From assembly GCA_017965765.1 (NCBI GenBank), contig JAGCPJ010000051.1, positions 1 through 57,734 on the forward strand: a stretch of DNA of 57,734 nt, read 5' to 3'. Below the pieces are notes generated by a model. It made no database searches, was not told the DNA's origin, and worked only from the letters and a program-made list of their open reading frames with translations. Below are positions 5,214 to 51,311 of this stretch, piece after piece (within the stretch, counting starts at the first letter, position 1; each line of letters opens with the position of its first letter). The DNA is from Bacteroidales bacterium (GTDB lineage Bacteria; Bacteroidota; Bacteroidia; Bacteroidales; F082). The translations under genes were made by a program, and so were the position numbers.

Positions 5214-5630
5214 CTAATAAAACGGGAAGAAGAAGAAATAAGCAGCTACTCTTTCACGAGGAATGCCCTGTGCTCTGCCGATGCTGGAACCGGAGCTATT
5301 GCGAACGGTCCCGTCGTTTTCGACCTTTCCGATGCTGGAACCGGAGCTGTTGCGCACCGTGCCGTCGTTGTCAAGTTTTCCGATGCTGGAGCCAGAGCTA
5401 TTGCGGATGGTGCCGTCGCGATCGATCTTTCCGATGCTGGCTCCCGAACTATTGCGGATGGTGCCGTCGTTGTCGAAATGACCGACGCTGGCGCCGCTAG
5501 AGTTACGGATGGTTCCATTGTCTTCAATCTTTCCGCAGCTTGAGCCGCTGCTGTTATATACGGTCTGGGCAGATACTGTAGTGGCTATCACCGTGGCTAA
5601 GGCCAAGAATAAGATTCGTAACGCTTTCAT
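5214..5630 (-). CDS. Secreted five-fold repeat protein (beta-flower type)
   Basis: The 138-residue product has a signal peptide (MKALRILFLALATVIATTVSA) followed by six units of 17 residues, the last one diverged, at residues 23-124. The unit is T-[IV]-[RY]-N-S-S-G-[AS]-S-[ICV]-G-K-[ILV]-x-[DN]-[DN]-G. This matches the small Bacteroidota proteins described as five-fold beta-flower proteins, in which each unit forms a blade. The C-terminus is strikingly aromatic (AAYFFFFPFY), a possible membrane- or partner-binding tail. Function is unknown. The gene stands alone: GH78 ends 83 bases upstream and a strong terminator follows. Confidence 0.75.
   Translation of the reverse strand: MKALRILFLALATVIATTVSAQTVYNSSGSSCGKIEDNGTIRNSSGASVGHFDNDGTIRNSSGASIGKIDRDGTIRNSSGSSIGKLDNDGTVRNSSGSSIGKVENDGTVRNSSGSSIGRAQGIPRERVAAYFFFFPFY
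5259..5564. repeat. Six tandem 51-bp units inside the repeat-protein gene
   Basis: The DNA for the 17-residue units repeats every 51 bases with high identity; the phrase CCGATGCTGGA(A/G)CC(G/A)GAGCTATTGCG recurs in shortened form on the plus strand. Because the period is a multiple of three, unit gain or loss would keep the frame. The same repetition keeps several antisense frames open, so those ORFs are not real genes. Confidence 0.9.
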
Positions 5631-20638: not shown

Positions 20639-22006
20639 ATGGAACAGATAGATAGGACAAGAGAGCTTGAAACCCAGGACATCAGGAAACTGTTGTGGGC
20701 ATACGCCATGCCTTCGATTGTCAGCCAGATCATCGCTTCGGTTTATAATATTTGCGACCGTGTGTTTTTGGGACAGTGTGTGGGTGCCATGGCCATCGCG
20801 GGTTTGGCAATCACGATGCCGATCATGAACATCATCCATGCGTTTGGCTCGCTGGTGGGTGTGGGTTCTTCAGCGCGCATGTCGATCATTTTGGGAAAGA
20901 AGGACTACAACTGGGCAGAGAAGATCTTGGGCAACAGTATGTTGCTGACGTTTATCTTTGGTTTTCTCTTCGTCACTGGCGGTTATGTGTTCATGGATCG
21001 GATCTTGACGATGTTTGGTGCTTCTGCCGAGACCATCGGCTACGCCAGGGAGTATATGGACATTGTGTTACCTGGGATGTTTCTTACCACGCTGACGTTC
21101 AACCTCACGGGTTTGATACGTGCCAGCGGTTATCCCAAGAAGTCGATGTGGATCATGGTGGGTGGTGCCGTGTTGAACATTGCGTTGGATGCCCTGTTCA
21201 TCTATGGATTGGATTGGGGAATCGCAGGTGCGGCTTGGGCTACTACCTTGTCCATGGGTAGTTCTGCAGTGGTCGCCATCATTCATTTCGTCCAGCCGAA
21301 GACGTTTATTCGTTTCCGTAGTCACGCCTGGAAGCCTAAAGGATATATCTTCCGTAACATCCTGTTGATCGGAATGAGTCCCTTTTTGATGAATGTAGCT
21401 GCTTCGGGTGTGGTGGCGTTGCTCAACAAACAGTTGATATTCTATGGTGGCGATTTGGCCGTAGGTGCATACGGCATTATCAACACCTTCGCCAGCTTGG
21501 CCGTGATGTTGATCCTAGGCGTGTGTCAAGGTATGCAACCGATTGCAGGTTACAACTATGGCGCGGGTCATCCACGTCGGTTGCGGTCGGTCTATATGTT
21601 GACCATGAAGGTGAATGTGATCATCGGCATGGCAAGTGCCGTGTTGGCGATGGCCATACCCCAAATTTTGTTGCGCGCCTTCACCAAGGAGGATGAACTC
21701 ATTCAAATTGCTGTTCCTGCCATGCGTTTCATCTTGGTGATGTTCGCCTTGGTGGGCTTCACCATCACCAATTCCAATTTCTTCCAGAGCATCGACAAGC
21801 CCTGGATTGCCATTGTCACTAGCCTCTCACGTCAAGTGTTGTTCCTCGCCCCCATGATCTACATCATACCACCATTGTTTGAGGACATGGGCTACCATGG
21901 CCTGACGGGTGTTTGGGCTTCGATGACGATCTCCGATGTCCTTGGCGCAGTCCTGGCATTTGTGTTGATGCTGACGCAGCGGAAAGTGTTTAGGAGTGAG
22001 GAGTGA
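20639..22006 (+). CDS. MATE-family multidrug/cation efflux transporter
   Basis: A 455-residue protein with twelve hydrophobic segments in two related halves. The first half opens with RKLLWAYAMPSIVSQIIASVYNICDRVFLG, the usual MATE start, and the second half repeats the pattern with FLMNVAASGVVALLNKQL. MATE proteins export cationic drugs or metabolites in exchange for Na+ or H+. The Na+ gradient from the Nqr complex further along could drive it, but the coupling ion is not readable. The last residues (RSEE) and the stop codon are made by a seven-base repeat (21993-22009). The GH89 gene ends 6 bases downstream on the other strand. Confidence 0.92.
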   Translation: MEQIDRTRELETQDIRKLLWAYAMPSIVSQIIASVYNICDRVFLGQCVGAMAIAGLAITMPIMNIIHAFGSLVGVGSSARMSIILGKKDYNWAEKILGNSMLLTFIFGFLFVTGGYVFMDRILTMFGASAETIGYAREYMDIVLPGMFLTTLTFNLTGLIRASGYPKKSMWIMVGGAVLNIALDALFIYGLDWGIAGAAWATTLSMGSSAVVAIIHFVQPKTFIRFRSHAWKPKGYIFRNILLIGMSPFLMNVAASGVVALLNKQLIFYGGDLAVGAYGIINTFASLAVMLILGVCQGMQPIAGYNYGAGHPRRLRSVYMLTMKVNVIIGMASAVLAMAIPQILLRAFTKEDELIQIAVPAMRFILVMFALVGFTITNSNFFQSIDKPWIAIVTSLSRQVLFLAPMIYIIPPLFEDMGYHGLTGVWASMTISDVLGAVLAFVLMLTQRKVFRSEE

Positions 22007-22009
22007 GGA
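21993..22009. repeat. Seven-base repeat at the MATE stop codon (unit GGAGTGA)
   Basis: Two full GGAGTGA units and a partial third; the second unit ends with the TGA stop of the MATE gene. It resembles in length and purine content the heptamer arrays in the frd and nqr genes. Confidence 0.7.
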
Positions 22010-22012
22010 GTA

Positions 22013-41219: not shown

Positions 41220-42035
41220 TTATTTGCCGTCCCTCCCAAACAATGCTTCAATCCACTGCCGATTAAGGCGCGAGATGTTCTGTCGTTTGATGAGTTTCGG
41301 GCATTCGGCCTCACAGGCATAGGTGTTGGTGCAACTTCCGAATCCCAACTCATCCATCTTGCAAACCATCTTTTTGGCGCGTTCGGCAGCTTCCACCTTG
41401 CCTTGGGGTAGCAGTGCCAGATGGCTGACCTTAGCGCCCACAAACAACATGGCACTGGCATTCTTGCATGCTGCCACACAGGCACCGCAACCGATGCACG
41501 AGGCGGCATCCATCGCCATGTCGGCGTCTTGTTTGGGTATCGGGATGGTGTTGGCATCGGGGACACCGCCTGTAGTAGTGCTGATGTAACCTCCTGCCTG
41601 GATGATCTTGTCAAGGGCAGAACGGTCCACCACAAGGTCGCGGATGACAGGGAACGGCTTGGCGCGCCAGGGCTCGATCCAAATGTCGTCTCCATCATGG
41701 AACTTGCGCATGTGCAGCTGACAGGTGGTGATGCCGTCGTCGTTGCCATGCGGACGGCCGTTGATATAGAGGCCACACATGCCACAGATGCCCTCTCGAC
41801 AGTCGTTGTCGAAGCAAACGGGATGAGTTATGGGAGAGTTTAGAGTTGAGAGTTGAGAGTTTAGAGTAGTTGAAAGCTGAGAGTTGAGAGTCGATCTGGT
41901 AATAAGCTGATCGTTCAGGATGTCGAGCATCTCGAGGAATGAGCAGTCGGGACTGATATTGTCAATCTGGTAAGTCTCGAAGTGGCCCTTTGCATGGGCA
42001 CACTCTTGTCTCCAAATATGCAGTGTGAAGTTCAT
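41220..42035 (-). CDS. frdB: Fumarate reductase/succinate dehydrogenase iron-sulfur subunit, with repeat-encoded insertion
   Basis: A 271-residue subunit. The [2Fe-2S] site is C79REGIC84GMC87 with C105; the [4Fe-4S] and [3Fe-4S] sites follow in [11 protein letters not shown] and CEAEC. It carries electrons between menaquinone and the flavin of FrdA. Residues about 47-70 (Thr/Leu/Asn/Ser-rich, [12 protein letters not shown] and so on) replace a loop of about four residues in relatives and are encoded by a seven-base repeat array at 41834-41891. The insertion ends eight residues before the first cluster cysteine. It is the last gene of frdC-frdA-frdB; an interspersed repeat half copy lies between it and frdA. 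Confidence 0.94.
41834..41891. repeat. Seven-base repeat array in frdB (unit GAGAGTT)
   Basis: About eight units of the form (G/T)AGAGTT in register, with one 11-base interruption (AGTTGAAAGCT). Read in the gene direction it gives a Leu-Ser-Thr-Asn-Gln repeat. Confidence 0.9.
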
Positions 42036-42072
42036 GGTTATCTGTTATTCGGTGATCCGGTCGCCGCTTTGC

Positions 42073-42116
42073 GTCATTGCGAGGAGCGGAGCTTTGCGGA
42101 GCGACGTGGCAATCCA
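42073..42116. repeat. 44-bp half copy of the palindromic repeat between frdA and frdB
   Basis: Identical over 44 bases to the left arm of the 7136-7221 element (GTCATTGCGAGG...GGCAATCCA). It fills most of the 87-base gap between the frdA stop and the frdB start. Confidence 0.88.
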
Positions 42117-42122
42117 CCATTA

Positions 42123-44087
42123 TTATTTATAGTTTCTGTTGGATATCTTAATATGTTCATAGACCAACGGCTCTTTCTCCATGGTCTCAGGTTGTCCGTG
42201 ACCTTGGTATTCCCAGGCAGCCACATACATGAAGTGCTCATCGTCGCGGAGGGTCTCGCCGTCTTGGGTCTGGTGTTCAGTGCGGAAATGACCGCCGCAG
42301 GACTCCTCCCTGTGCATCGCGTCGTCGATGACAAGTTGTGCCAGCTCGAAATAGTCCTCCAACCGGCAGGCCTTCTCCAACTCGGGGTTGAACTCGTTGG
42401 CTGTGCCTGGGATGAAGACGGATTTCCAGAACTCTTCTTCCAAATCCTTGACCAATGCCTTGGCTTTGTTGAGACTCTCAGTGTTTCGTGCCATGCCGCA
42501 GTATTCCCACATAATCTTGCCCAAGGCTTTGTGAAAGTGGTCGACGGAGTTGAGAGTTGAGAGGTGAGAGTTGAGAGTTGCTTGCGCACCGATTTGTAAT
42601 AAACGGTTGAGGCGGACACGAACGGCCTCTTCTGCCGCATCAAATTCTGGCGTTGTGGCTGAAATCTTCCCCACATAGATCTGGTCGGCGAGGTAGTTCT
42701 GCATGGTGTAGGGCAAAACGAAATAGCCATCGGCCAGTCCTTGCATCAAGGCGGAGGCACCGAGGCGGTTGGCGCCGTGGTCGCTGAAGTTGGCCTCGCC
42801 TGCAGCGAAGAGTCCCGGGATGGTGGTCTGCAGTTCGTAGTCCACCCACAGTCCACCCATGGTGTAGTGGATGGCGGGATAGATCATCATCGGCGTCTCG
42901 TAGGGATTCTCGTCCGTGATCTTCTGGTACATCTGGAAGAGGTTGCCGTATCTCTGTTCGACGGCTTCTTTGCCCAGACGTTGGATGGCGTCGGCGAAGT
43001 CGAGGTAAACGGCATACCCTGTCCCTACGCCATAGCCGGCGTCGCAGCGTTCCTTGGCGGCTCGGCTGGCCACATCACGGGGGACGAGATTGCCGAAGGC
43101 GGGGTAACGGCGCTCCAGATAGTAGTCGCGGTTTTCTTCAGGGATGTCATTGGCTTTTAGCTTGCCCGCACGGATGGCTTCGGCGTCTTCTTTTTTCTTG
43201 GGCACCCAGATGCGGCCATCATTGCGGAGACTCTCGCTCATCAGGGTGAGTTTCGACTGATAGTCGCCGTGGACGGGGATGCAGGTGGGATGGATCTGCA
43301 CATAGCAAGGGTTGGCGAAAGCGGCTCCTTTGCGGTGGCACACCCATGCCGCGCTACCGTTGCTGTTCATGGCGTTGGTGGACAGGTAATAGAGGTTGCC
43401 GTAACCGCCAGTGGCGAGTACCACGGCATGGGCGGCATAGCGCTCCAGGTCGCCGGTGACGAGGTTGCGGACGATGATGCCGCGGGCGCGGCCTTCCACC
43501 ACGACGAGGTCCATCATTTCGCAGCGCGTATGCAGTTTCACCGTGCCTCGGGCAATCTCACGACTCAAGGCGCCGTAGGCGCCAAGCAACAGTTGCTGTC
43601 CCGTCTGGCCTTTGGCGTAGAAGGTTCGGCTCACCTGAGCGCCGCCAAAAGAGCGGTTGTCGAGAAGTCCGCCATAGTCACGGGCGAAAGGTACGCCTTG
43701 GGCCACACATTGGTCGATGATGGCGCCGCTGACCTCAGCCAAGCGATAGACGTTGGCCTCGCGGGCGCGGTAGTCGCCTCCCTTGATGGTGTCGCGGAAG
43801 AGGCGTTCCACGCTGTCGCCATCGTTCTGGTAGTTCTTCGCCGCGTTGATGCCTCCTTGGGCTGCGATGCTATGGGCACGGCGTGGTGAGTCTTGGATGC
43901 AGAAAATATCCACATGGAAACCCATGGCGCCGAGCGAGGCTGCTGCTGAGGCACCGGCCAGTCCCGTGCCGACCACGATGATGTCGAGTTTGCGTTTGTT
44001 GGCGGGATTGACCAGCTTCTGAGAGGCTTTATAGTTGGTCCATTTCTCAGCGAGCGGACCTGAAGGTATCTTGGAATCGAGGTTCAT
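42123..44087 (-). CDS. frdA: Fumarate reductase/succinate dehydrogenase flavoprotein subunit
   Basis: The start at 44087 ([16 protein letters not shown]) matches family N-termini; a longer frame from 44144 would run through the repeat leader. The 654-residue protein has the FAD fold [15 protein letters not shown], the [14 protein letters not shown] flavin-linking segment, [14 protein letters not shown], and the active-site region [12 protein letters not shown] and [11 protein letters not shown]. It reduces fumarate to succinate with menaquinol, or the reverse. Residues about 503-515 ([12 protein letters not shown]) are made by a seven-base repeat in the helical domain. No signal peptide; it works on the inner face of the membrane. 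Confidence 0.95.
42545..42579. repeat. Seven-base repeat array in frdA (unit GAGAGTT)
   Basis: Four full units (one GAGAGGT) and one partial unit. Same unit as in frdB, in frame. Confidence 0.88.
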
Positions 44088-44092
44088 TTTAA

Positions 44093-44113
44093 GTGGAAAG
44101 TGGAAAGTTGAAA
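44093..44113. repeat. Seven-base repeat array filling the frdC-frdA gap (unit GTGGAAA)
   Basis: Three units, the last GTTGAAA. It occupies nearly all of the 28 bases between the frdC stop codon and the frdA start, so it is the frdA ribosome-loading region. Confidence 0.85.
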
Positions 44114-44115
44114 GA

Positions 44116-44922
44116 TTATAACCCAAAATAGACAAGGAGCACAACGGCAGTGAACATCAGGCACACCACCCAGGTGTAGATCTGGCCAAGCACCTCAATG
44201 GCTTTGCCGTATTTGTAGTTATATAGTCCGAAGGTCTGGAAGATGGCGGCGAAGCCGTGTCGCAAATGGAACCAGACCACTACAAAAAACACGAGGTAGG
44301 AAATGACAATGTGCAAGATCTTGAATTTTTCCCTGGCTTGGTGGTAGAAGTCTGGTTCGACCTCAAGTCCGGCGGCTTCCAAAGCTACCTTGTCTTCTTT
44401 GTCGAAGTTGGCAAGCCAGGTGCCTTTGGCCGACAGTTCGCCTTTTTGCTCGGCATAACTGACCGCCTCAGGCTGTGTGGCTTTCACCTTCATGAGTTCC
44501 TCCGTTTGGACCATGTATTTACCCTTCACCCAGCCGATCTTGACGAAGTAAAAGTCAGTAAAATGCATGATGAGGCAGACAAAGATGAGGATGCCTGTCC
44601 ACACTTGCAGTTTGGAACCGGCGTGTGTTTTGGAGCGTTGCGGCTTGTGGTAGCCCTTGGGTCGTGCCATCTTGTTGGTGATGGCTAACCAGATGGCCAA
44701 CACCGCATGCAGTAGCAGCGCACCAAACAGGCCTATCTCTAGTATCTTGACGATGACGTAGGTGCCCATGAAATGACAGAAGGCATTGTACCATTCGCCG
44801 CCGTCAGGTCTTAAAATGAGGAGATTGGCACTGGCGTGAAACAGCAGGAAGAAACTCAAGAAGGCGCCCAAAGCGCCAACAAGAATCTTCTTTGAGATGG
44901 AATGGATCTTAGGTAGGTTCAT
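44116..44922 (-). CDS. frdC: Fumarate reductase/succinate dehydrogenase cytochrome b subunit
   Basis: The start at 44922 ([15 protein letters not shown]) begins just before the first membrane helix and 21 bases past a -7 box; the longer frame from 45060 would overlap the divergent GNAT gene. The 268-residue protein has five membrane segments, as in di-haem subunits of the Bacteroidota/Wolinella type, with candidate haem histidines in [35 protein letters not shown] and WFHLRHGF. It anchors FrdAB and exchanges electrons with menaquinone. First gene of the frdCAB operon. Confidence 0.92.
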
Positions 44923-44943
44923 GGATGAGTCGTTTTCATTATG

Positions 44944-44951
44944 CAAAAGTA
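44944..44951 (-). promoter_or_regulatory. -7 box for the frdCAB operon
   Basis: Minus strand TACTTTTG followed by C, 21 bases before the frdC ATG. It lies 12 bases from the opposing GNAT box, so the two promoters overlap. Confidence 0.6.
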
Positions 44952-44963
44952 CTGAAAAAAAAC

Positions 44964-44971
44964 TATCTTTG
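44964..44971 (+). promoter_or_regulatory. -7 box for the GNAT gene
   Basis: TATCTTTG followed by C, 21 bases before the ATG at 44993. Confidence 0.6.
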
Positions 44972-44992
44972 CATTCACATAACAAAACAACT

Positions 44993-45475
44993 ATGAACAC
45001 GTTATTCACCATCCGTCCTGCAAAGCCCGAGGAGGCAGGTCTCGTCCTTGATTTTATCAAGAAGCTGGCCGTTTACGAAAAATGTGCCGATGAGGTCGTG
45101 GCGGACGAAGCCACCATCCGCCATTCCTTGTTTGTGGAACGTGCTGCCGAAGTGGTCTTTGCCGAGGAAGACGGCGTTGTCATCGGCTTTGCCTTGTTTT
45201 TCCACAATTTCTCCACCTTTGTCGGACGTAAGGGTTTGTATCTTGAAGACTTGTTCATCCTTCCCGAGAAACGGGGCCGGGGTTATGGCAAAGCCTTGCT
45301 GAAATACTTGGCTAGGATCGCTGTCGATCGTAATTGTGGCCGCATGGAATGGATTTGTCTTGATTGGAACAAACCTGCTTTGACGGTTTATCGTAGCATT
45401 GGGGCGGTGCCCATGGATGAATGGACCGTGCAACGTTTGGATGAAATGTCCTTGCGTAAGTTCGCGGAAGAATAA
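44993..45475 (+). CDS. GNAT-family N-acetyltransferase
   Basis: The start at 44993 (MNTLFTIRPAKPEEAGLVLDFIKKLA) gives a normal 160-residue GNAT; the longer frame would run through the frd promoter. The acetyl-CoA site is LYLEDLFILPEKRGRGYGKALLKYLA, with WICLDWNKPALTVYRSIGA downstream. The sequence resembles the diamine/spermidine acetyltransferase branch (AVYEKCADEV, LYLEDLFV pattern), so polyamines or small amines are possible acceptors. It sits between the divergent frd operon and the convergent nqrF end. Confidence 0.9.
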   Translation: MNTLFTIRPAKPEEAGLVLDFIKKLAVYEKCADEVVADEATIRHSLFVERAAEVVFAEEDGVVIGFALFFHNFSTFVGRKGLYLEDLFILPEKRGRGYGKALLKYLARIAVDRNCGRMEWICLDWNKPALTVYRSIGAVPMDEWTVQRLDEMSLRKFAEE

Positions 45476-45481
45476 GGATGC

Positions 45482-46873
45482 TTAATTCTTAGGAGCCCCT
45501 CCGCCGAAGTCATCGTAAAGGATGTTCTCAGGCGCAACGCCTAAATTGTCAAGCATGTTGACGACGGCGGCACTCATCGGGCCGGGACCACATAGGTAGT
45601 ATTCGATGTCCTCGGGGGCAAGATGGTCTTTCAGATAGGTATCATACATCACGTTGTGTACAAAGCCAGGGGTGTAAGGTATGCCTGCCGCATCGGCTGC
45701 TGGATCAGGACGGTCCAGGGCGAGGTGGAAATGGAAGTTCGGGAAGTCTTTCTCCAACTGACGGAAGTCATCTAAGTAGAACACTTCGTTTAAGGCTCTG
45801 GCACCATAGAAATAGTGCATCTCACGGTCTCTGACATTCAAAGTGCGTGTCAAGTGCATGATCTGTGCGCGCAAAGGAGCCATGCCAGCGCCGCCGCCTA
45901 CCCAAATCATTTCGGGCAGTTGAGCTCTAACCGAACCATCCGAATGTATCCGAGCTGTCTCCATTCGGTTTGTTTCGGGTGATTCGGTTAGTGATATTTC
46001 AAGATGCTCTTTCACATGGAACTCGCCGTATGGGCCTGACATCAGCACCTTGTCGCCGGGTTTCAGCGAGAAGATATAGGAGGAAGCAATACCAGGATTA
46101 ACATTCATAAATGGCGATTCGTTCTCCGTTCTCCGTTTTTCGTTTTCCGTTTTCTTGAACGGCGGTGTGGCGATGCGTACGGTGAGCATAAAGACGTCGC
46201 CCTCGGCAGGATAATTGGCCATGGAATAGGCGCGCACGGTCGGTTCGGTGTTGACGCAGCGCAAGTCGAACATCTTGAACTTCTCCCACGCTGGAAGATA
46301 CGCTGAGCCGATCAGTTCCTTGTCGAAATCGGCATAGTTGATTTTGAACTTCGGTATCTTGATTTGAGCATAACTGCCTGGAATGAAGTCCATGTGGACA
46401 CCAGGGGGCAGCTGTACCTTGAATTCTTTGATGAAGGTGGCCACGTTGCGGTTGCTGATCACGGTGCATTCGTATTCCTTGACATCCAAAACCGATTGAG
46501 GTACAACTATCTTCAAATCTTCCTTCACCTTCACCTGGCATCCCAGGCGCCAGTGGTCCTGAATCTGCTTGCGGGTAAAGAATCCAACTTCGGTGGGCAA
46601 AATCGTTCCGCCGCCTTCAACCACACGGCATTTGCACTGACCGCACGAGCCTTTGCCACCACAGGCAGAAGGCAGATACACTTTCTGTTCGGCAAGGCTG
46701 TTAATCAGCGTATCGCCGACGGGCACTGTCAGCTCCTTGTCGTCGTTGATGGTGATCTTCACCTCGCCCTTGGGCATCAGTTTGTTACGTACCCAAAGTA
46801 GCAGGGCCACGAGTAGAAGCGTGATGCCTAGGAAAACGGCAATGCTGAGGAATATGTTAGTGGTGAAGTCCAT
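45482..46873 (-). CDS. nqrF: Na+-translocating NADH:quinone reductase subunit F, with repeat-encoded segment
   Basis: The start at 46873 (MDFTTNIFLSIAVF) opens the single N-terminal membrane helix. The 463-residue protein has the ferredoxin domain (PSACGGKGSCGQCKCRV), FAD site (VRAYSMANYP) and NADH site (WVGGGAGMAPLRAQI, YYLCGPGPM). It takes electrons from NADH into the complex. Residues about 240-251 (Lys/Thr/Glu/Asn/Arg) come from a seven-base repeat in the loop after RIATPPF. Last gene of the nqrABCDEF operon; 4 bases follow nqrE. Confidence 0.96.
   Translation of the reverse strand: MDFTTNIFLSIAVFLGITLLLVALLLWVRNKLMPKGEVKITINDDKELTVPVGDTLINSLAEQKVYLPSACGGKGSCGQCKCRVVEGGGTILPTEVGFFTRKQIQDHWRLGCQVKVKEDLKIVVPQSVLDVKEYECTVISNRNVATFIKEFKVQLPPGVHMDFIPGSYAQIKIPKFKINYADFDKELIGSAYLPAWEKFKMFDLRCVNTEPTVRAYSMANYPAEGDVFMLTVRIATPPFKKTENEKRRTENESPFMNVNPGIASSYIFSLKPGDKVLMSGPYGEFHVKEHLEISLTESPETNRMETARIHSDGSVRAQLPEMIWVGGGAGMAPLRAQIMHLTRTLNVRDREMHYFYGARALNEVFYLDDFRQLEKDFPNFHFHLALDRPDPAADAAGIPYTPGFVHNVMYDTYLKDHLAPEDIEYYLCGPGPMSAAVVNMLDNLGVAPENILYDDFGGGAPKN
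46121..46154. repeat. Seven-base repeat array in nqrF (unit GTTCTCC/GTTTTCC)
   Basis: Nearly five units: GTTCTCC twice, GTTTTTC, GTTTTCC and a partial. On the coding strand this is GGAAAAC-type, purine-rich. Confidence 0.87.
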
Positions 46874-46877
46874 GAAG

Positions 46878-47492
46878 TCAAAGTTTAAATCCCATAAATG
46901 CCATAAAGGCAATACCCATCAAACCCGTGATGATGAAAGAAATGCCAACGCCTTGCAATCCTTTGGGAATCTTGGAGTAACGCAGTTTTTCACGGATGGC
47001 GGCGATGGCCACAATGGCCAACAGCCAGCCGATGCCCGAGCCGAGACCGAAAACGGCCGCCTCACCCACATTGCTGAAATTGCGCTCTTGCATGAAGAGG
47101 GAGCAGCCCAGAATGGCGCAGTTCACTGCAATCAGTGGGAGGAAAATGCCCAAAGCGGAATAGAGCGAGGGCGTGAAGGTCTCGATGATCATCTCCAAGA
47201 TCTGTACGATGGCGGCGATGATGGCAATAAAAAGGATATAGGTCAGGAAACTCAAATCAATAGTGGCGAAGCGAGGGCTGATCCATGCTAATGCTCCTGG
47301 TGATAATAGGTATTTGTTAATTAGATAGTTAACTGGTACGGTGATCACCAATACAAAGGTCACGGCCAACCCCAAACCTGCGCTGGTCTTAACGGTCTTC
47401 GACACGGCCAAATAGGAACACATGCCTAAGAAATAGGCGAAGATCATGTTGTCAACAAAGACCGATTTCACGAAGAGTTTGAAGATTTCCAT
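46878..47492 (-). CDS. nqrE: Na+-NQR subunit E
   Basis: A 204-residue protein with six membrane segments and the family motifs [46 protein letters not shown] and [20 protein letters not shown]. With NqrD it forms the symmetric pair holding an iron centre within the membrane part of the complex; the Cys in MCSYLA and NCAILG fit its ligands. Six bases follow nqrD. Confidence 0.97.
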
Positions 47493-47498
47493 GGCCGT

Positions 47499-48122
47499 TT
47501 ATTTTTGGTTGTTCTCTTGCATTTCTGGGTGGCGGCTGCGTTGGATCCAGATGATAATACCTACGATGATCAGGGCCATGGGTGGAAGAATCATCAACCC
47601 ATTGTTCTGATAGCCAGCCTCGTAAAAAGATTGCGGAATGATTTGGTAACCCAGGAGTGTTCCCGATCCTAACAGTTCACGGAAGAAGGCAACCATGACC
47701 AGGATCAAGCTATATCCTAGTCCATTGCCTAGCCCATCCAAAAACGACTCACCAGGCCCATGAGAGAGCGCGAAGGCCTCCAAGCGTCCCATGATGATGC
47801 AGTTGGTGATGATAAGTCCCACATAAACAGAGAGTTGCTTGCTCACGTCGTATGCAAAGGCTTTCAGGAACTGGTCGATCATGATCACCAATGTGGCCAC
47901 GACCACCAATTGAACGATGATGCGGATGCGGTTGGGGATGCCTTTACGTAATAGGGAGATGATGAAGTTGGAGAGTGCGGTCACCACCGTCACGGAAGCC
48001 CCCATCACCAAGGCGGGCTTCAACTTGGCGGTCACGGCCAGGCAGGAGCAGATGCCCAACACCAGCACGGTGACTGGATTGGTTTTGCGCAAGGGTTCTA
48101 TGAGGAGTTTCTTTACATTCAT
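47499..48122 (-). CDS. nqrD: Na+-NQR subunit D
   Basis: A 207-residue protein with six membrane segments, paralogue of NqrE. Motifs LVLGICSCLAVTAKLKPALVMG and TNCIIMGRLEAFALSHGPGESFLDGLGNGLGY are present, with the conserved cysteines in GICSC and TNCII. It is part of the Na+ path and the intramembrane iron site. It overlaps nqrC by 4 bases. Confidence 0.97.
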   Translation of the reverse strand: MNVKKLLIEPLRKTNPVTVLVLGICSCLAVTAKLKPALVMGASVTVVTALSNFIISLLRKGIPNRIRIIVQLVVVATLVIMIDQFLKAFAYDVSKQLSVYVGLIITNCIIMGRLEAFALSHGPGESFLDGLGNGLGYSLILVMVAFFRELLGSGTLLGYQIIPQSFYEAGYQNNGLMILPPMALIIVGIIIWIQRSRHPEMQENNQK

Positions 48123-48655
48123 CGTTTTTTAAGATAAGGCAAATATAGCTGCGTTGTGTGGTTGATCATTTCTCTCACGCCATTGGAGGTCTTGGTGGCC
48201 CCTGTAATGGCATCGAATTCAATGGGGACTTGACTTCCATTTTCCACCACCCTTTTCCCAGCAAATTGGCTTTGGAACTTCGTGGTGGTAATCTCACCGC
48301 CCAACCCAGGTGTCTCCGATTTATGGCCAAAGCTGGCCCCCACCACCGTCTTGCTGTCAGAAGCCAGGGCGAGATAACCCCAGATGGGTCCCCAAAGACC
48401 GTTGCCCTGCATGGGGAGAACGGTAATGGAGTCGTTGACAAGGTAATAGGGTAGCTCGCTGTCAACAAAAGAAATGGCATCGTTGTCATCTGCCCCAGCA
48501 GCAGCGAGAATCATCATGCGTTTCTCATTCTCCTTGTTGCGTTGTTGGTAGGGTTGAAGCCATAAAGCCGTAGCCGTGAGCAATACCGCTACGACAACCA
48601 CTAACACCGTGGAGTACAGGAAGATGTATCCGTTGCTGTTGATATTCCTTTTCAT
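48119..48655 (-). CDS. nqrC: Na+-NQR subunit C, short form
   Basis: A 178-residue protein with one N-terminal membrane helix (GYIFLYSTVLVVVVAVLLTATALWL) and a periplasmic FMN domain. The covalent-FMN site is ITGATKTSNGV, where the second residue group carries the linking Thr. GHKSETPGLGGEI is conserved. Most NqrC proteins have about 230-260 residues; this one lacks roughly 50-80 residues from the middle, making it nearer RnfG in size. It overlaps both nqrB and nqrD by 4 bases. Confidence 0.93.
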   Translation of the reverse strand: MKRNINSNGYIFLYSTVLVVVVAVLLTATALWLQPYQQRNKENEKRMMILAAAGADDNDAISFVDSELPYYLVNDSITVLPMQGNGLWGPIWGYLALASDSKTVVGASFGHKSETPGLGGEITTTKFQSQFAGKRVVENGSQVPIEFDAITGATKTSNGVREMINHTTQLYLPYLKKR

Positions 48656-49896
48656 TGGACTGCGGCTTTGGATTTGACGATGGCGCGTTTTTTGCGCTTT
48701 TTGATATTTCTTGCCACAACGCAGTGGTCAATGAGCGGTGCAAAGCAATTCATGAGCAAGATGCTGAGCATCATGCCTTCAGGATAGGCGGGGTTGACAA
48801 CGCGCAATAACACGGCGAAGAGGCCGATGAGCAGGCCGTAGATCCACTTGCCCGTGTTGGTTTGTGCCGCCGTGACGGGGTCGGTGGCCATGAAGACTGC
48901 ACCGAACATGAAGCCGCCCATCAGGTAGTGGTAGTAGAAGGGTAACTGTAAGTAAGTTGAGAGTTGAGGGTTGAGCGTTGAGAGTAGTGGTAAGTTGAGC
49001 GTTGTAAGTAGGTTGAAGAACAGACCCATGAGACCGCCACCCAGGACGACAGAAAGCATGATGCGCCAACTGGCAATTCCTGTCACTAACAATAGGATGG
49101 CTCCCAGTAAGATGGCGATGACCGAAGATTCGCAAGTTGAGCCGGGAATGGTGCCGAGAAACATATCCAAGGCGGAAGTAGAGGGCTGAATTCCAGCGGC
49201 CAGTTCGCCTAAAGGCGTAGCACCCGTAAAGGCATCGGTGCCCCAAAAATCGGCTGCAACCCAGACGCTGTCTCCCGACATACGGGTGGGGTAGGCGAAG
49301 AAGAGGAAGGCACGCGCCACCAAGGCGGGGTTGAGGAAGTTCATGCCTGTTCCGCCGAAGACCTCCTTGCCAATGATGACAGCAAAGGCCGTGGCAAGTG
49401 CGAGTTGCCACAAAGGCGTGGTGACGGGCATGATCATCGGGATGATGAATCCCGTAACCAAAAAACCTTCATTGACTTGATGGTGCCGTAGCTGAGCAAA
49501 AGCAAATTCAATGGTCAGGCCCACAGTGTAGGAAACGGCCAACATGGGCAACATTCGTATGAAACCGAAGACGAAACAAAAGATCCAGCTGGCCACAGAC
49601 CCCAACGGGTAAGGCCAATCCGTCGCATGAAGCGATGCCTGGTAGCCGATGTTCCACATGCCAAAAAGCATGGCGGGCATCAAAGCGAACACCACGATGA
49701 TCATGGCGCGCTTTAAGTCGATGGCGTCGCGGACATGGCAACCTTTAGTGGTAACCCGATTGGGAGTGAAGGCAAAGGTGTGGAATGCCTCGTAGGTGCT
49801 GCCCAGCCAAGCCCATTTCCCCTTGGGTTCATGGACTTCGAACCATTTCTCCAAGGCGGATAGTATTCCGTTTTCCGTTTTCCGTTTTCCGTTCAT
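48652..49896 (-). CDS. nqrB: Na+-NQR subunit B, with two repeat-encoded segments
   Basis: A 414-residue membrane subunit with about ten helices. The covalent-FMN site is DAFTGATPLGEL. It binds FMN and riboflavin and carries the main Na+ path. Two parts are made by seven-base repeats: the N-terminus directly after the start codon (MNGKRKTENGI, 49865-49893) and residues about 297-314 (LTTLNLPLLSTLNPQLST, 48956-49007) in a loop before PFYYHYLMGG. It overlaps nqrA and nqrC by 4 bases each. Confidence 0.95.
   Translation of the reverse strand: MNGKRKTENGILSALEKWFEVHEPKGKWAWLGSTYEAFHTFAFTPNRVTTKGCHVRDAIDLKRAMIIVVFALMPAMLFGMWNIGYQASLHATDWPYPLGSVASWIFCFVFGFIRMLPMLAVSYTVGLTIEFAFAQLRHHQVNEGFLVTGFIIPMIMPVTTPLWQLALATAFAVIIGKEVFGGTGMNFLNPALVARAFLFFAYPTRMSGDSVWVAADFWGTDAFTGATPLGELAAGIQPSTSALDMFLGTIPGSTCESSVIAILLGAILLLVTGIASWRIMLSVVLGGGLMGLFFNLLTTLNLPLLSTLNPQLSTYLQLPFYYHYLMGGFMFGAVFMATDPVTAAQTNTGKWIYGLLIGLFAVLLRVVNPAYPEGMMLSILLMNCFAPLIDHCVVARNIKKRKKRAIVKSKAAVQ
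48956..49007. repeat. Seven-base repeat array inside nqrB (unit GTTGAGA)
   Basis: Six to seven units (GTTGAGA, GTTGAGG, GTTGAGC and so on) with one short interruption. Same unit family as the frdA and frdB arrays. Confidence 0.87.
49865..49893. repeat. Seven-base repeat array at the nqrB start codon (unit GTTTTCC)
   Basis: About four units (partial ATTCC, three GTTTTCC, partial GTT) directly adjoining the ATG. On the coding strand GGAAAAC-type, as in nqrF. Confidence 0.88.
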
Positions 49897-51311
49897 CCTA
49901 CGTCCTCCTTTCTCAGTCTTTCCAATGCATCACGGATGATTTGTTGGATGTCGGTTTTCGAAGTGTCAATGTACTCGCAAAGTGCAAAGTCCTCTGGTTC
50001 AACCTCATAGATTCCGAGGTTTTCCATCAGTTCAATGTCGCCGACGAGGCAAGCTTTGATGAGTTGGGTGGGGTAGATGTCGAAGGGGAAGACCCGCTCG
50101 AAGTTGCCGGTGAAGACCAATGGACGTTCGTCGCCGTGCGTGTTGGTGTCGAATCTCCAGAAGTGCTCAAAACGAGGCAAGTCGATGCCCAATGGCTTGA
50201 AGGTGCTCTTTGGCATGAATCCACTGAGGAAAGTTCTCGAGAAGCTGTGTTTCCTTAGCCCTGGCATCATCCAACCCATGAAGTCGTAATAGTTGCCTTC
50301 GGGAAGGATGCTCACCAGGTCGTCATAAGCTCCGAGGAAACCATCAGAGGTGATTTGCGTGCCGCATAGGATGTCACCTGAAATGATTCGGCTCTCATGA
50401 TGGTTGTCGGAGGTGTCCATCTTTGGAAAACTGTCATTAAGTAGCTGAGCCTTAATAATTTCCGAAAGACAGGCTCCGGTTTTTACACGGTAGTAATGTG
50501 CATTTTTGATATTTGGCCCAGCGACAGCGATGACCTTTTCGGGATTATAAACCCCTGTGGCGACCAATTCCCCCAACACGGCAACATCTTGGACATTCAT
50601 CGTCCACACAATATCACCTTTATTAATGGGGTCGATTTTTGCAATCTGTGTACCGACGTTTCCGGCGGGGTGAGGACCTTTGAAGGTGAAAGTGGAAAGT
50701 GGAAAGTGGAGAGAGGAAAGTTGGGTGGCGAGTTTTTGGCCGGGACGGAAAGAGACATGAACCTTACCTTTGGTTAATTGGGAGAGGGCCTCAAGGCCTT
50801 TCTTGAGATACGCTTCCCTACCTTGCATCGCGAAGTCGTAATCAGGCGCCAAGGGTACACTGCTGAAAGCACTGACGAAAATGGCCTTGGGCATGTCGTC
50901 GGGGTTGGCCACCGTGCCAAAAGGACGCTGGCGCAACTTCGTCCAGAGGCCACATTGCAGCATGGCTTCTTTGATAGAAGAGGTGTCGATTTTGTTCGGT
51001 GAAGGCAGATTGTTTGCTTTTTCTTCGACGACTACCTCAAGAAGTTTTCGTTTTTCGCCCCTATGGATGGCCTTCACGCAACCGTTGACAGGTGAGGTGA
51101 AACGAATGCGCTCGTCGTTCTTGTCGCAGAACAAGGCATCGCCAATAGTAACAATATCGCCTTCCTCTACCAGCAAGCGTGGCGTGAGTCCCACAAAATC
51201 AGTGGGTTTAACAGCGTATGAGGCGATGTTTCGCGCATCGGTGAGGCGTTTCTCAGCCGCTCCACCGATGGGCAAATCCAAACCTTTTCGTATGGTGATG
51301 GTTCCCGACAT
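49893..51311 (-). CDS. nqrA: Na+-NQR subunit A, with repeat-encoded segment
   Basis: A 472-residue cytoplasmic subunit with family segments ITIRKGLDLPIGG near the N-terminus, FKGPHPAGNVGTQIAKIDPI, VAVAGPNIKN, and LGIYEVEPEDFALCEYIDTSKTDIQQIIRDAL at the end. It is thought to bind quinone at the membrane face. Residues about 198-209 (LSSLHFPLSTFT), just before FKGPHPAG, are encoded by a seven-base repeat. First gene of the operon; the promoter box is 11 bases upstream. Confidence 0.96.
   Translation of the reverse strand: MSGTITIRKGLDLPIGGAAEKRLTDARNIASYAVKPTDFVGLTPRLLVEEGDIVTIGDALFCDKNDERIRFTSPVNGCVKAIHRGEKRKLLEVVVEEKANNLPSPNKIDTSSIKEAMLQCGLWTKLRQRPFGTVANPDDMPKAIFVSAFSSVPLAPDYDFAMQGREAYLKKGLEALSQLTKGKVHVSFRPGQKLATQLSSLHFPLSTFTFKGPHPAGNVGTQIAKIDPINKGDIVWTMNVQDVAVLGELVATGVYNPEKVIAVAGPNIKNAHYYRVKTGACLSEIIKAQLLNDSFPKMDTSDNHHESRIISGDILCGTQITSDGFLGAYDDLVSILPEGNYYDFMGWMMPGLRKHSFSRTFLSGFMPKSTFKPLGIDLPRFEHFWRFDTNTHGDERPLVFTGNFERVFPFDIYPTQLIKACLVGDIELMENLGIYEVEPEDFALCEYIDTSKTDIQQIIRDALERLRKEDVG
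50685..50719. repeat. Seven-base repeat array in nqrA (unit GTGGAAA)
   Basis: Five units (GGTGAAA, GTGGAAA twice, GTGGAGA, GAGGAAA). Same unit as the array in the frdC-frdA gap. Confidence 0.88.

Follow-up and report, generated by a model that had tools for sequence, protein, structure and literature searches.

Why should conserved enzymes such as FrdA and NqrA carry tandem repeats of seven bases within their coding sequence? The question is raised by a contig of 57,734 nucleotides from a Bacteroidales bacterium (JAGCPJ010000051.1), in which an earlier note, made from the letters alone, had pointed out seven arrays of imperfect heptamers in and between the frd and nqr genes. This whole stretch, here called the window, is contig C47 of a 2.0-Mb metagenome-assembled genome (MAG; G000) that comprises 78 contigs and is 76% complete. 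We report that imperfect arrays of heptanucleotides occur throughout the genome in a genus of rumen Bacteroidales, and that these seven are among them. Comparison of aligned relatives indicates that the same protein loops hold unrelated fillers in different genomes, and the arrays are probably tolerated passengers, generated by slippage and filtered by selection.

Heptamer arrays in the window and across the genome

Array coordinates were obtained with Tandem Repeats Finder (TRF); a separate self-match scan covered every period from 4 to 24, and 20 third-order Markov copies of the window served as the null. TRF confirmed all seven arrays (in frdB, frdA, the frdC-frdA gap, nqrF, nqrB twice and nqrA), as well as the observation that unit type differs from array to array. 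The self-match scan returned eight period-7 segments, these seven and one at 21992-22011; at other periods it returned only multiples of seven, plus two period-24 segments within those arrays. No period-7 segment was seen in any of the 20 Markov copies. The seven arrays lie far above chance, and no other primary period behaves this way in the window. Separately, a megablast search against plasmids gave no matches.

We then combined the window (57,734 bases) with 40 stretches from elsewhere in the same MAG (582,429 bases), giving a sample of 640,163 bases. Period-7 arrays number 74 outside the window versus 8 within it, an equal density of about one per 8 kb. The total of 82 compares with 9, 4 and 6 arrays at periods 8, 9 and 12, one at period 6, and none at periods 4, 5, 10, 11 or 13 in the 640,163 bases; over the whole sample, each period other than 7 accounts for 0-9 arrays, multiples of seven excepted. 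One Markov copy contained no period-7 array.

For placement, we called genes with our own simple hexamer gene caller, which gave 500 genes and assigned 89% of the sampled bases to coding sequence. By these calls, 17 of the 82 arrays are internal to genes, 11 lie at a gene end, 32 cross a gene edge and 22 are intergenic. The arrays are thus over-represented outside coding DNA (17/82 internal versus 89% coding bases), as in the known class of heptanucleotide simple sequence repeats (SSRs). Tandem, convergent and divergent spacers hold 41, 12 and 2 arrays, respectively, compared to 345, 59 and 55 spacers of those kinds. Placement is therefore mostly between genes or at gene ends, and seldom in divergent spacers. 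In tandem spacers, the purine-rich strand is sense for 34 of the 41 arrays and antisense for 7. Where a stretch has genes on both strands, array orientation mostly follows that of the gene.

Twelve internal arrays lie beyond frd-nqr, in nine genes with Pfam matches: aminotransferase class V, GDP-mannose dehydratase/epimerase, FtsK, PMT-type transferase, peptidase M28, DnaX, MazG, DUF4292 and oxaloacetate decarboxylase gamma. The first two we take to be SufS-like and RmlB-like, respectively, and label them so below. Given the equal density elsewhere and the internal arrays in these nine genes, the arrays are not respiratory, contrary to the concentration in respiratory genes that the earlier note had claimed. 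The genome-wide count proposed there, run here on a sample, removes the respiratory link while upholding a local intragenic cluster: among the 17 intragenic arrays sampled, 5 fall in the 9.5 kb of frd-nqr. This cluster is real in this genome, but it was picked after being seen.

Turnover of repeats in protein loops

Pfam matches support the gene identities: Fer2_3/Fer4 for frdB; FAD_binding_2 and Succ_DH_flav_C for frdA; Fer2, FAD_binding_6 and NAD_binding_1 for nqrF; NQR2_RnfD_RnfE for nqrB; and NQRA domains for nqrA. The frdC frame has no Pfam match and is named from its gene context. Open reading frames hold the nqrA, nqrF, frdA, frdB and both nqrB arrays.

In frdB (gene on the minus strand), units GAGAGTT/TAGAGTT/GAAAGCT at 41834..41891, read on the plus strand, lengthen the loop preceding HPVCFD (11-residue peptide). 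The frdA array (42547..42580, plus strand, AGTTGAG units) occupies the loop from LLQIG to VDHFHK. In nqrF, the array at 46120..46154 (minus strand) reads GGAAAAC/GGAGAAC on the coding strand and encodes KTENEKRRTEN, and in nqrB, units AGTTGAG/AGGGTTG/AGCGTTG at 48955..49004 (plus strand; 48955-48985 by TRF) encode LNPQLST between FFN and LPFYY. The nqrA array (50688..50721, plus strand, AAGTGGA units) lies in the loop preceding the invariant GPHP motif. A further array in nqrB (49866..49893, minus strand) is a perfect (GGAAAAC)4 over the start of the gene, giving MNGKRKTENG, and the intergenic array (44091..44114, plus strand, AAGTGGA) is immediately upstream of the frdA start. A second variable site in nqrF (45912..46007, minus strand, about amino acids 303-334) appears as a gap in DNA matches; the window's own copy has no heptamer array there.

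The named relatives in the genome collection are rumen and gut Bacteroidales MAGs, with Candidatus Colimorpha records among the more distant ones. For eight sites we assembled 232 locus-by-site combinations, of which 219 have a frame spanning the site; with 8 reference rows these make 227. The 13 combinations left out comprise L052, frame-broken at its array, and others mostly at contig ends. The 227 rows include 8 duplicates of the same genomes, a FrdA from L023 that is truncated and, from other families, the frd loci L033 and L036-L038. Fillers were heptameric in 59 of 227 rows, and in another 27 they matched at least three places in unrelated sampled DNA; by eye, these 27 are 19 palindromic, 4 octamer and 4 degenerate tandem sequences. 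Among 454 flanking control pieces, 2 were heptameric and none was a dispersed repeat. The remaining site rows had no match (127) or one or two matches (14), the latter also being true of 61 of 454 controls, 52 of them at the SufS-like gene and probably paralogues. As a further control we used EF-G, encoded beside nqr. In 60 genomes searched, 46 match at threshold, 45 of them by a single match, and no such site was seen. Of the single matches, those in G079 and G013 are partial and those in G015 and G029 fall short of the query stretch by 26 and 51 nt; G034 has two matches on two contigs.

Individual sites differ in what they hold. At the FrdB site, heptamers are present in 4 of 28 aligned rows and the other 24 have a shorter loop without recognised repeat. 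Heptamers occupy the first NqrF site in 5 of 29 rows, most relatives carrying a short PDRSG-type loop, and the NqrB site between FFN and LPFYY in 8 of 28 aligned rows. At the FrdA site, relatives have heptamers of different type, palindromes (GTAGAGACG-type, CCTTCGACAGGCTCAGG-type or others) or no recognised repeat, and aligned orthologues show the same turnover at the second NqrF site (heptamers or CCCTTCGACAGGCTCAGGG-type palindromes), in NqrB and in the SufS-like and RmlB-like genes. The CGTCATTGCGAGGAG family, judged by eye, fills nqrA, SufS-like and RmlB-like loops of relatives. In the SufS-like array, both arms change together between G000/G022 and G009, again by eye. The frdC-frdA gap contains other heptamers, inverted heptamer pairs or other sequence.

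Among solved relatives of FrdA, the closest is 9lay_A, which aligns with a gap at the frdA insert. The aligned NqrA structure 8a1u_A is four residues shorter at the array site, and the NqrA array therefore mostly replaces native loop sequence and is not a pure addition. In the alignments of relatives, the same loops hold heptamers, octamers, palindromes resembling repetitive extragenic palindromic (REP) elements, or no recognised repeat, with few frame breaks. Two suggestions of the earlier note, that the repeats are tolerated in loops and that the coding arrays are held in frame, gain support here.

Constant length in the NqrA loop

NqrA allowed the closest look at one loop. The set comprised 65 rows (the window and L139-L202), or 64 after a coverage filter that dropped L174; L203-L218 were not included. 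The 41 rows at ≥65% identity, window included, divide into 16 heptamer rows of eight unit types, 12 octamer rows, 10 of CGTC type (CGTCATTGCGAGGAG-like), 1 with another palindrome and 2 unclassified (L161, L177). All 23 rows at ≤64% identity lack a recognised repeat in the loop. On a tree of the remaining NqrA protein, filler labels change at least 23 times, or 17 with coarse labels, a count that ignores recombination between species. The octamers (AACAATTA type; L146-L153, L155, L157, L160, L166) replace heptamers and make period 8 a minor second class.

In all 16 heptamer rows and the 2 unclassified ones, the site slice is 16 residues long and its best alignment to L140 is at shift 0. The distance from the KVHV-type anchor to GPHP, for which L143 was left out, is 30 residues in 16 of the 17 measured; in L178 it is 35, with the excess upstream of the array. 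Octamer loops have 31 residues in 12 of 12 cases. The frdC-frdA intergenic array, in the seven of 42 scanned loci that match both anchors, measures 55, 55, 56, 62, 62, 69 and 84 nt, with differences of 7, 14 or 28 nt save for an offset of one between two groups. These comparisons indicate that the coding array changes unit type without a change of register or loop length, whereas the frdC-frdA intergenic array, homologous between these loci, changes mostly by 7-nt steps.

Unit types and genome vocabularies

When rotated and read on the purine-rich strand, every one of the 82 arrays follows the pattern RRAR+NNN, the third base being A, compared to 34% of random genomic heptamers allowed equal rotation. 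Several arrays have unit types in common, and hence the 82 are not independent in this test. The 19 listed consensus units, one of which is a rotation of another, all fit, and none of them is a published unit (GGGNATC, GGGGAYT or TAACTGA); they are a new set of heptamers within the known SSR class. The commonest, GGAAAAC, accounts for 27 of 82 arrays. Its perfect 24-mer matches this genome 15 times, counting two matches that overlap, and is absent from the 197 other genomes sampled from the phylum; the CAACTCT 24-mer was found in 2 of 197 others sampled from the order.

Period 7 is also the most frequent among periods 4-13 in four other genomes of the genus, with 42 and 8 arrays per 400 kb and 35 and 13 per 200 kb (0.2-1.75 per 10 kb). 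Separately, more distant rumen Bacteroidales loci (L203-L218) contain 34 period-7 arrays in 237 kb, alongside periods 8, 9 and 11. Across five genomes, the probability that two arrays have the same unit is 0.116 within a genome versus 0.034 between genomes (0 of 200 permutations). At the eight intragenic sites, with duplicate rows taken out (54 of the 59 heptamer rows), pairs with identical units make up 24% of those within genomes and 9% of those between genomes, and 11 of 300 permutations reach the within-genome mean. Each of the five sampled genomes has its own unit vocabulary, and so the arrays of one genome are not fully independent.

A probable origin of the arrays

We consider it probable that the arrays arise through period-7 slippage and homogenisation, joined by REP insertion, and that selection for frame and loop tolerance filters the outcome. 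Units would be multiplied and made alike through transient 7-nt misalignment of strands, that is, by slippage, with copying from a neighbouring unit or from the opposite arm of a hairpin. Between genes, this process would alter copy number. Inside genes, selection for length and frame would purge out-of-frame change, so that length-neutral rewriting survives. REP-type palindromes would reach the same loops by transposition. The frd and nqr arrays would then have no respiratory function.

Several observations weigh against this account. Unit types common to unrelated loci of one genome point to something beyond pure local slippage, such as some spread or a common bias. Nor is copying of whole arrays demonstrated: aperiodic 24-mers in common between arrays are in the range of shuffles (96 pairs in G000, null mean 75.7, maximum 107; 17 versus a mean of 14.3 in G033; 3 versus a mean of 7.2 in G022; none in G020 or G010). 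The RRAR rule is weaker in the four other genomes (38/42, 5/8, 34/35 and 8/13). The sense bias is absent from arrays with one neighbouring gene (3 sense, 5 antisense) and not clear for internal arrays (10 sense, 7 antisense), and the position of arrays near 3′ ends could mean an RNA function. At four of the eight sites, the majority of rows have no recognised repeat. One caveat here is that the evidence consists of MAG consensus sequences of different species, from which slippage can only be inferred.

Alternative explanations

Alternatively, the arrays might be a mobile element that some unknown enzyme inserts ready-made, which we think improbable. A genome carries the same units at numerous unrelated positions, and they are seldom met in other genomes, as the GGAAAAC and CAACTCT 24-mers illustrate; arrays and dispersed palindromes share loops; and in G035 an identical imperfect 33-nt heptamer array is found in nqrF and in the SufS-like gene (L087 and L237). 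On the other hand, unit order in common is not above that of shuffles, and whole-array copying is therefore not demonstrated. No target duplication was seen by eye in empty-versus-filled comparisons. The register common to all sixteen heptamer arrays of NqrA points to descent and not to insertion on repeated occasions.

No heptamer array was found around nine of the many Y1_Tnp genes, within about 1.4-2 kb per side (except L117, a stretch of 13 kb; the C6 match is below the family cut-off), which gives no support to a REP-associated tyrosine transposase (RAYT) as their mover. The Y1_Tnp gene at G000:C37 is flanked by a REP-like palindrome. The seven arrays themselves are tandem rather than tagged palindromes, and we reject a REP or Rickettsia-type palindromic element as their identity. 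Of the short mobile repeat envisaged in the earlier note, mobility is likely in the case of the dispersed palindromes found in those loops and unproven in that of the heptamers.

It is also unlikely, in our estimation, that the arrays act at the RNA level, as terminator, stability or binding elements near gene 3′ ends, with the intragenic ones as strays. The 34 to 7 sense bias in tandem spacers and the 12 convergent versus 2 divergent arrays are consistent with such a role, and REPs and GGGNATC heptamers are likewise reported near 3′ ends. Six of nine close array pairs are inverted and could fold back as hairpins, two of these six (L104, L106) being inside conserved genes. However, unit sequence is free to differ between species, one-sided and internal arrays show no bias, and purging of arrays from promoters would give the same placement. 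As an aside, inverted pairs at L106:4764-4852, within the RmlB-like gene, and L111:8303-8376, beside a gene, surround a similar centre (GCCTCCGGAGG / GCCTCAGGAGG) and are possibly a composite element.

Phase variation, in which gain or loss of seven bases would switch frd and nqr, seems very unlikely. Seven is not a multiple of three, a homologous intergenic array (frdC-frdA) does vary, mostly by 7-nt steps, and frame breaks coincide with arrays in two relatives: the frame is lost at the octamer array of G080 nqrA (L052) and at the heptamer array of G078 nqrB (L060). These could be real alleles or assembly errors, since a MAG consensus cannot separate switching from error. G080 nqrA loses its frame again just downstream, and hence a contig error is likely in that case. 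Against switching, the nqrA loop length is constant across species; the window arrays are short (2.9 to 7.9 copies by TRF) and mostly imperfect; arrays occur genome-wide, mostly outside or at the edge of genes; and sister species carry palindromes or repeat-free loops instead. The phase-variation device acting on electron transport that had been proposed is therefore not supported. Frames are also broken away from arrays: the RmlB-like frame of L271 upstream of its site, and the FrdA frames of G011 and G023, which are split elsewhere than at the site.

We give little credence to the idea that all arrays of a genome are rewritten towards the species vocabulary, at constant length and even in central-metabolism genes, by a factor acting in trans, either a protein or an RNA template, that prefers seven-base units of its own. 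If this were true, the arrays would be the trace of some as yet unknown activity in templated DNA synthesis or repair. Finally, respiratory loci as preferred targets also seem very unlikely. Although 5 of 17 intragenic arrays of the 640 kb lie within the 9.5 kb of frd-nqr, this cluster was a post hoc choice, total density is equal elsewhere and two non-respiratory genes show the same loop turnover, the last two findings also ruling out respiratory concentration as a genome-wide rule.

Other repeats in the window

The eighth period-7 array (21992..22011, plus strand, AGGAGTG units; TRF and self-match scan) overlaps the end of a MatE gene identified by Pfam. Between frdB and frdA lies a dispersed repeat of CGTCATTGCGAGGAG type (42074..42117, minus strand), with 100% copies at G000:C76, C70 and C47:7137-7180, copies of 96-98% at C61 and others in several relatives. 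At 5278-5476, TRF reports a tandem repeat of 51 bases (3.9 copies, score 251) that is other than the heptamer kind.

Significance and comparison with known systems

Most studies of repeat DNA look at it between genes or treat it as a switch; in this genus it appears to be tolerated and rewritten inside genes. Loops of FrdA, NqrA, NqrB, NqrF and at least two non-respiratory enzymes would serve, genus-wide, as slots for unrelated repeats while the surrounding enzyme is conserved, providing a natural record of protein loops that accept foreign peptides. The aligned coding arrays, with one register, one loop length and different units, suit the study of unit homogenisation without copy-number change. 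For annotators, it is useful to know that such inserts, and occasional MAG frame breaks, occur at repeats. A literature search that did not cover most subscription papers listed nothing on heptamer arrays within genes of Bacteroidales. Apparently new are heptamer arrays in frame in loops of conserved enzymes, their species-specific units and their exchange with palindromes at the same site; the array class itself is known.

Contingency loci are phase-variable SSRs. Like them, the arrays described here have a unit length that is not a multiple of three and lie within coding sequence. They differ in being short and mostly imperfect, in the constant length of the nqrA loop across species and in that the genes concerned are not surface genes. 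Among earlier work on heptanucleotide repeats is reportedly that of Mrazek (2007), as cited in the study of TAACTGA repeats.

The closest relatives are the heptanucleotide SSRs. Such arrays are described from cyanobacteria, Xanthomonas/Nostoc (GGGNATC; PMC4692102), Beggiatoaceae (TAACTGA; PMC4679880) and five Bacteroidetes. The arrays of the present genome belong to this class, consisting of head-to-tail seven-base units over-represented against other periods. The known SSRs of PMC4692102 and PMC4679880 are similar in the dominance of period 7, in their dispersed and mostly intergenic placement, in the presence of several heptamers per genome and in 7-nt indel increments, reported for Cyanothece. 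Here, by contrast, vocabularies differ between genomes of one genus, the units of this genome fit RRAR+NNN, and arrays keep the reading frame within internal loops of conserved enzymes, the same loops carrying unrelated repeats in sister species. The intragenic TAACTGA sets are reported to fall chiefly at the ends of proteins and in hypothetical ones (PMC4679880).

Intragenic REPs are known from many bacteria, and PMC3733652 describes different REPs at about the same recB site in two Xanthomonas. As in that report's account of intragenic REPs and Rickettsia palindromic elements, short repeats here decorate proteins in frame. The palindromes in nqrA, frdA, SufS-like and RmlB-like loops resemble its GTAG/CGTC REP families, although we name them by tag letters only. 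Unlike those elements, the heptamers form arrays whose units are not palindromic, and no transposase is known for them. What further sets the present system apart is that tandem arrays and palindromes appear to trade places at several sites across dozens of genomes.

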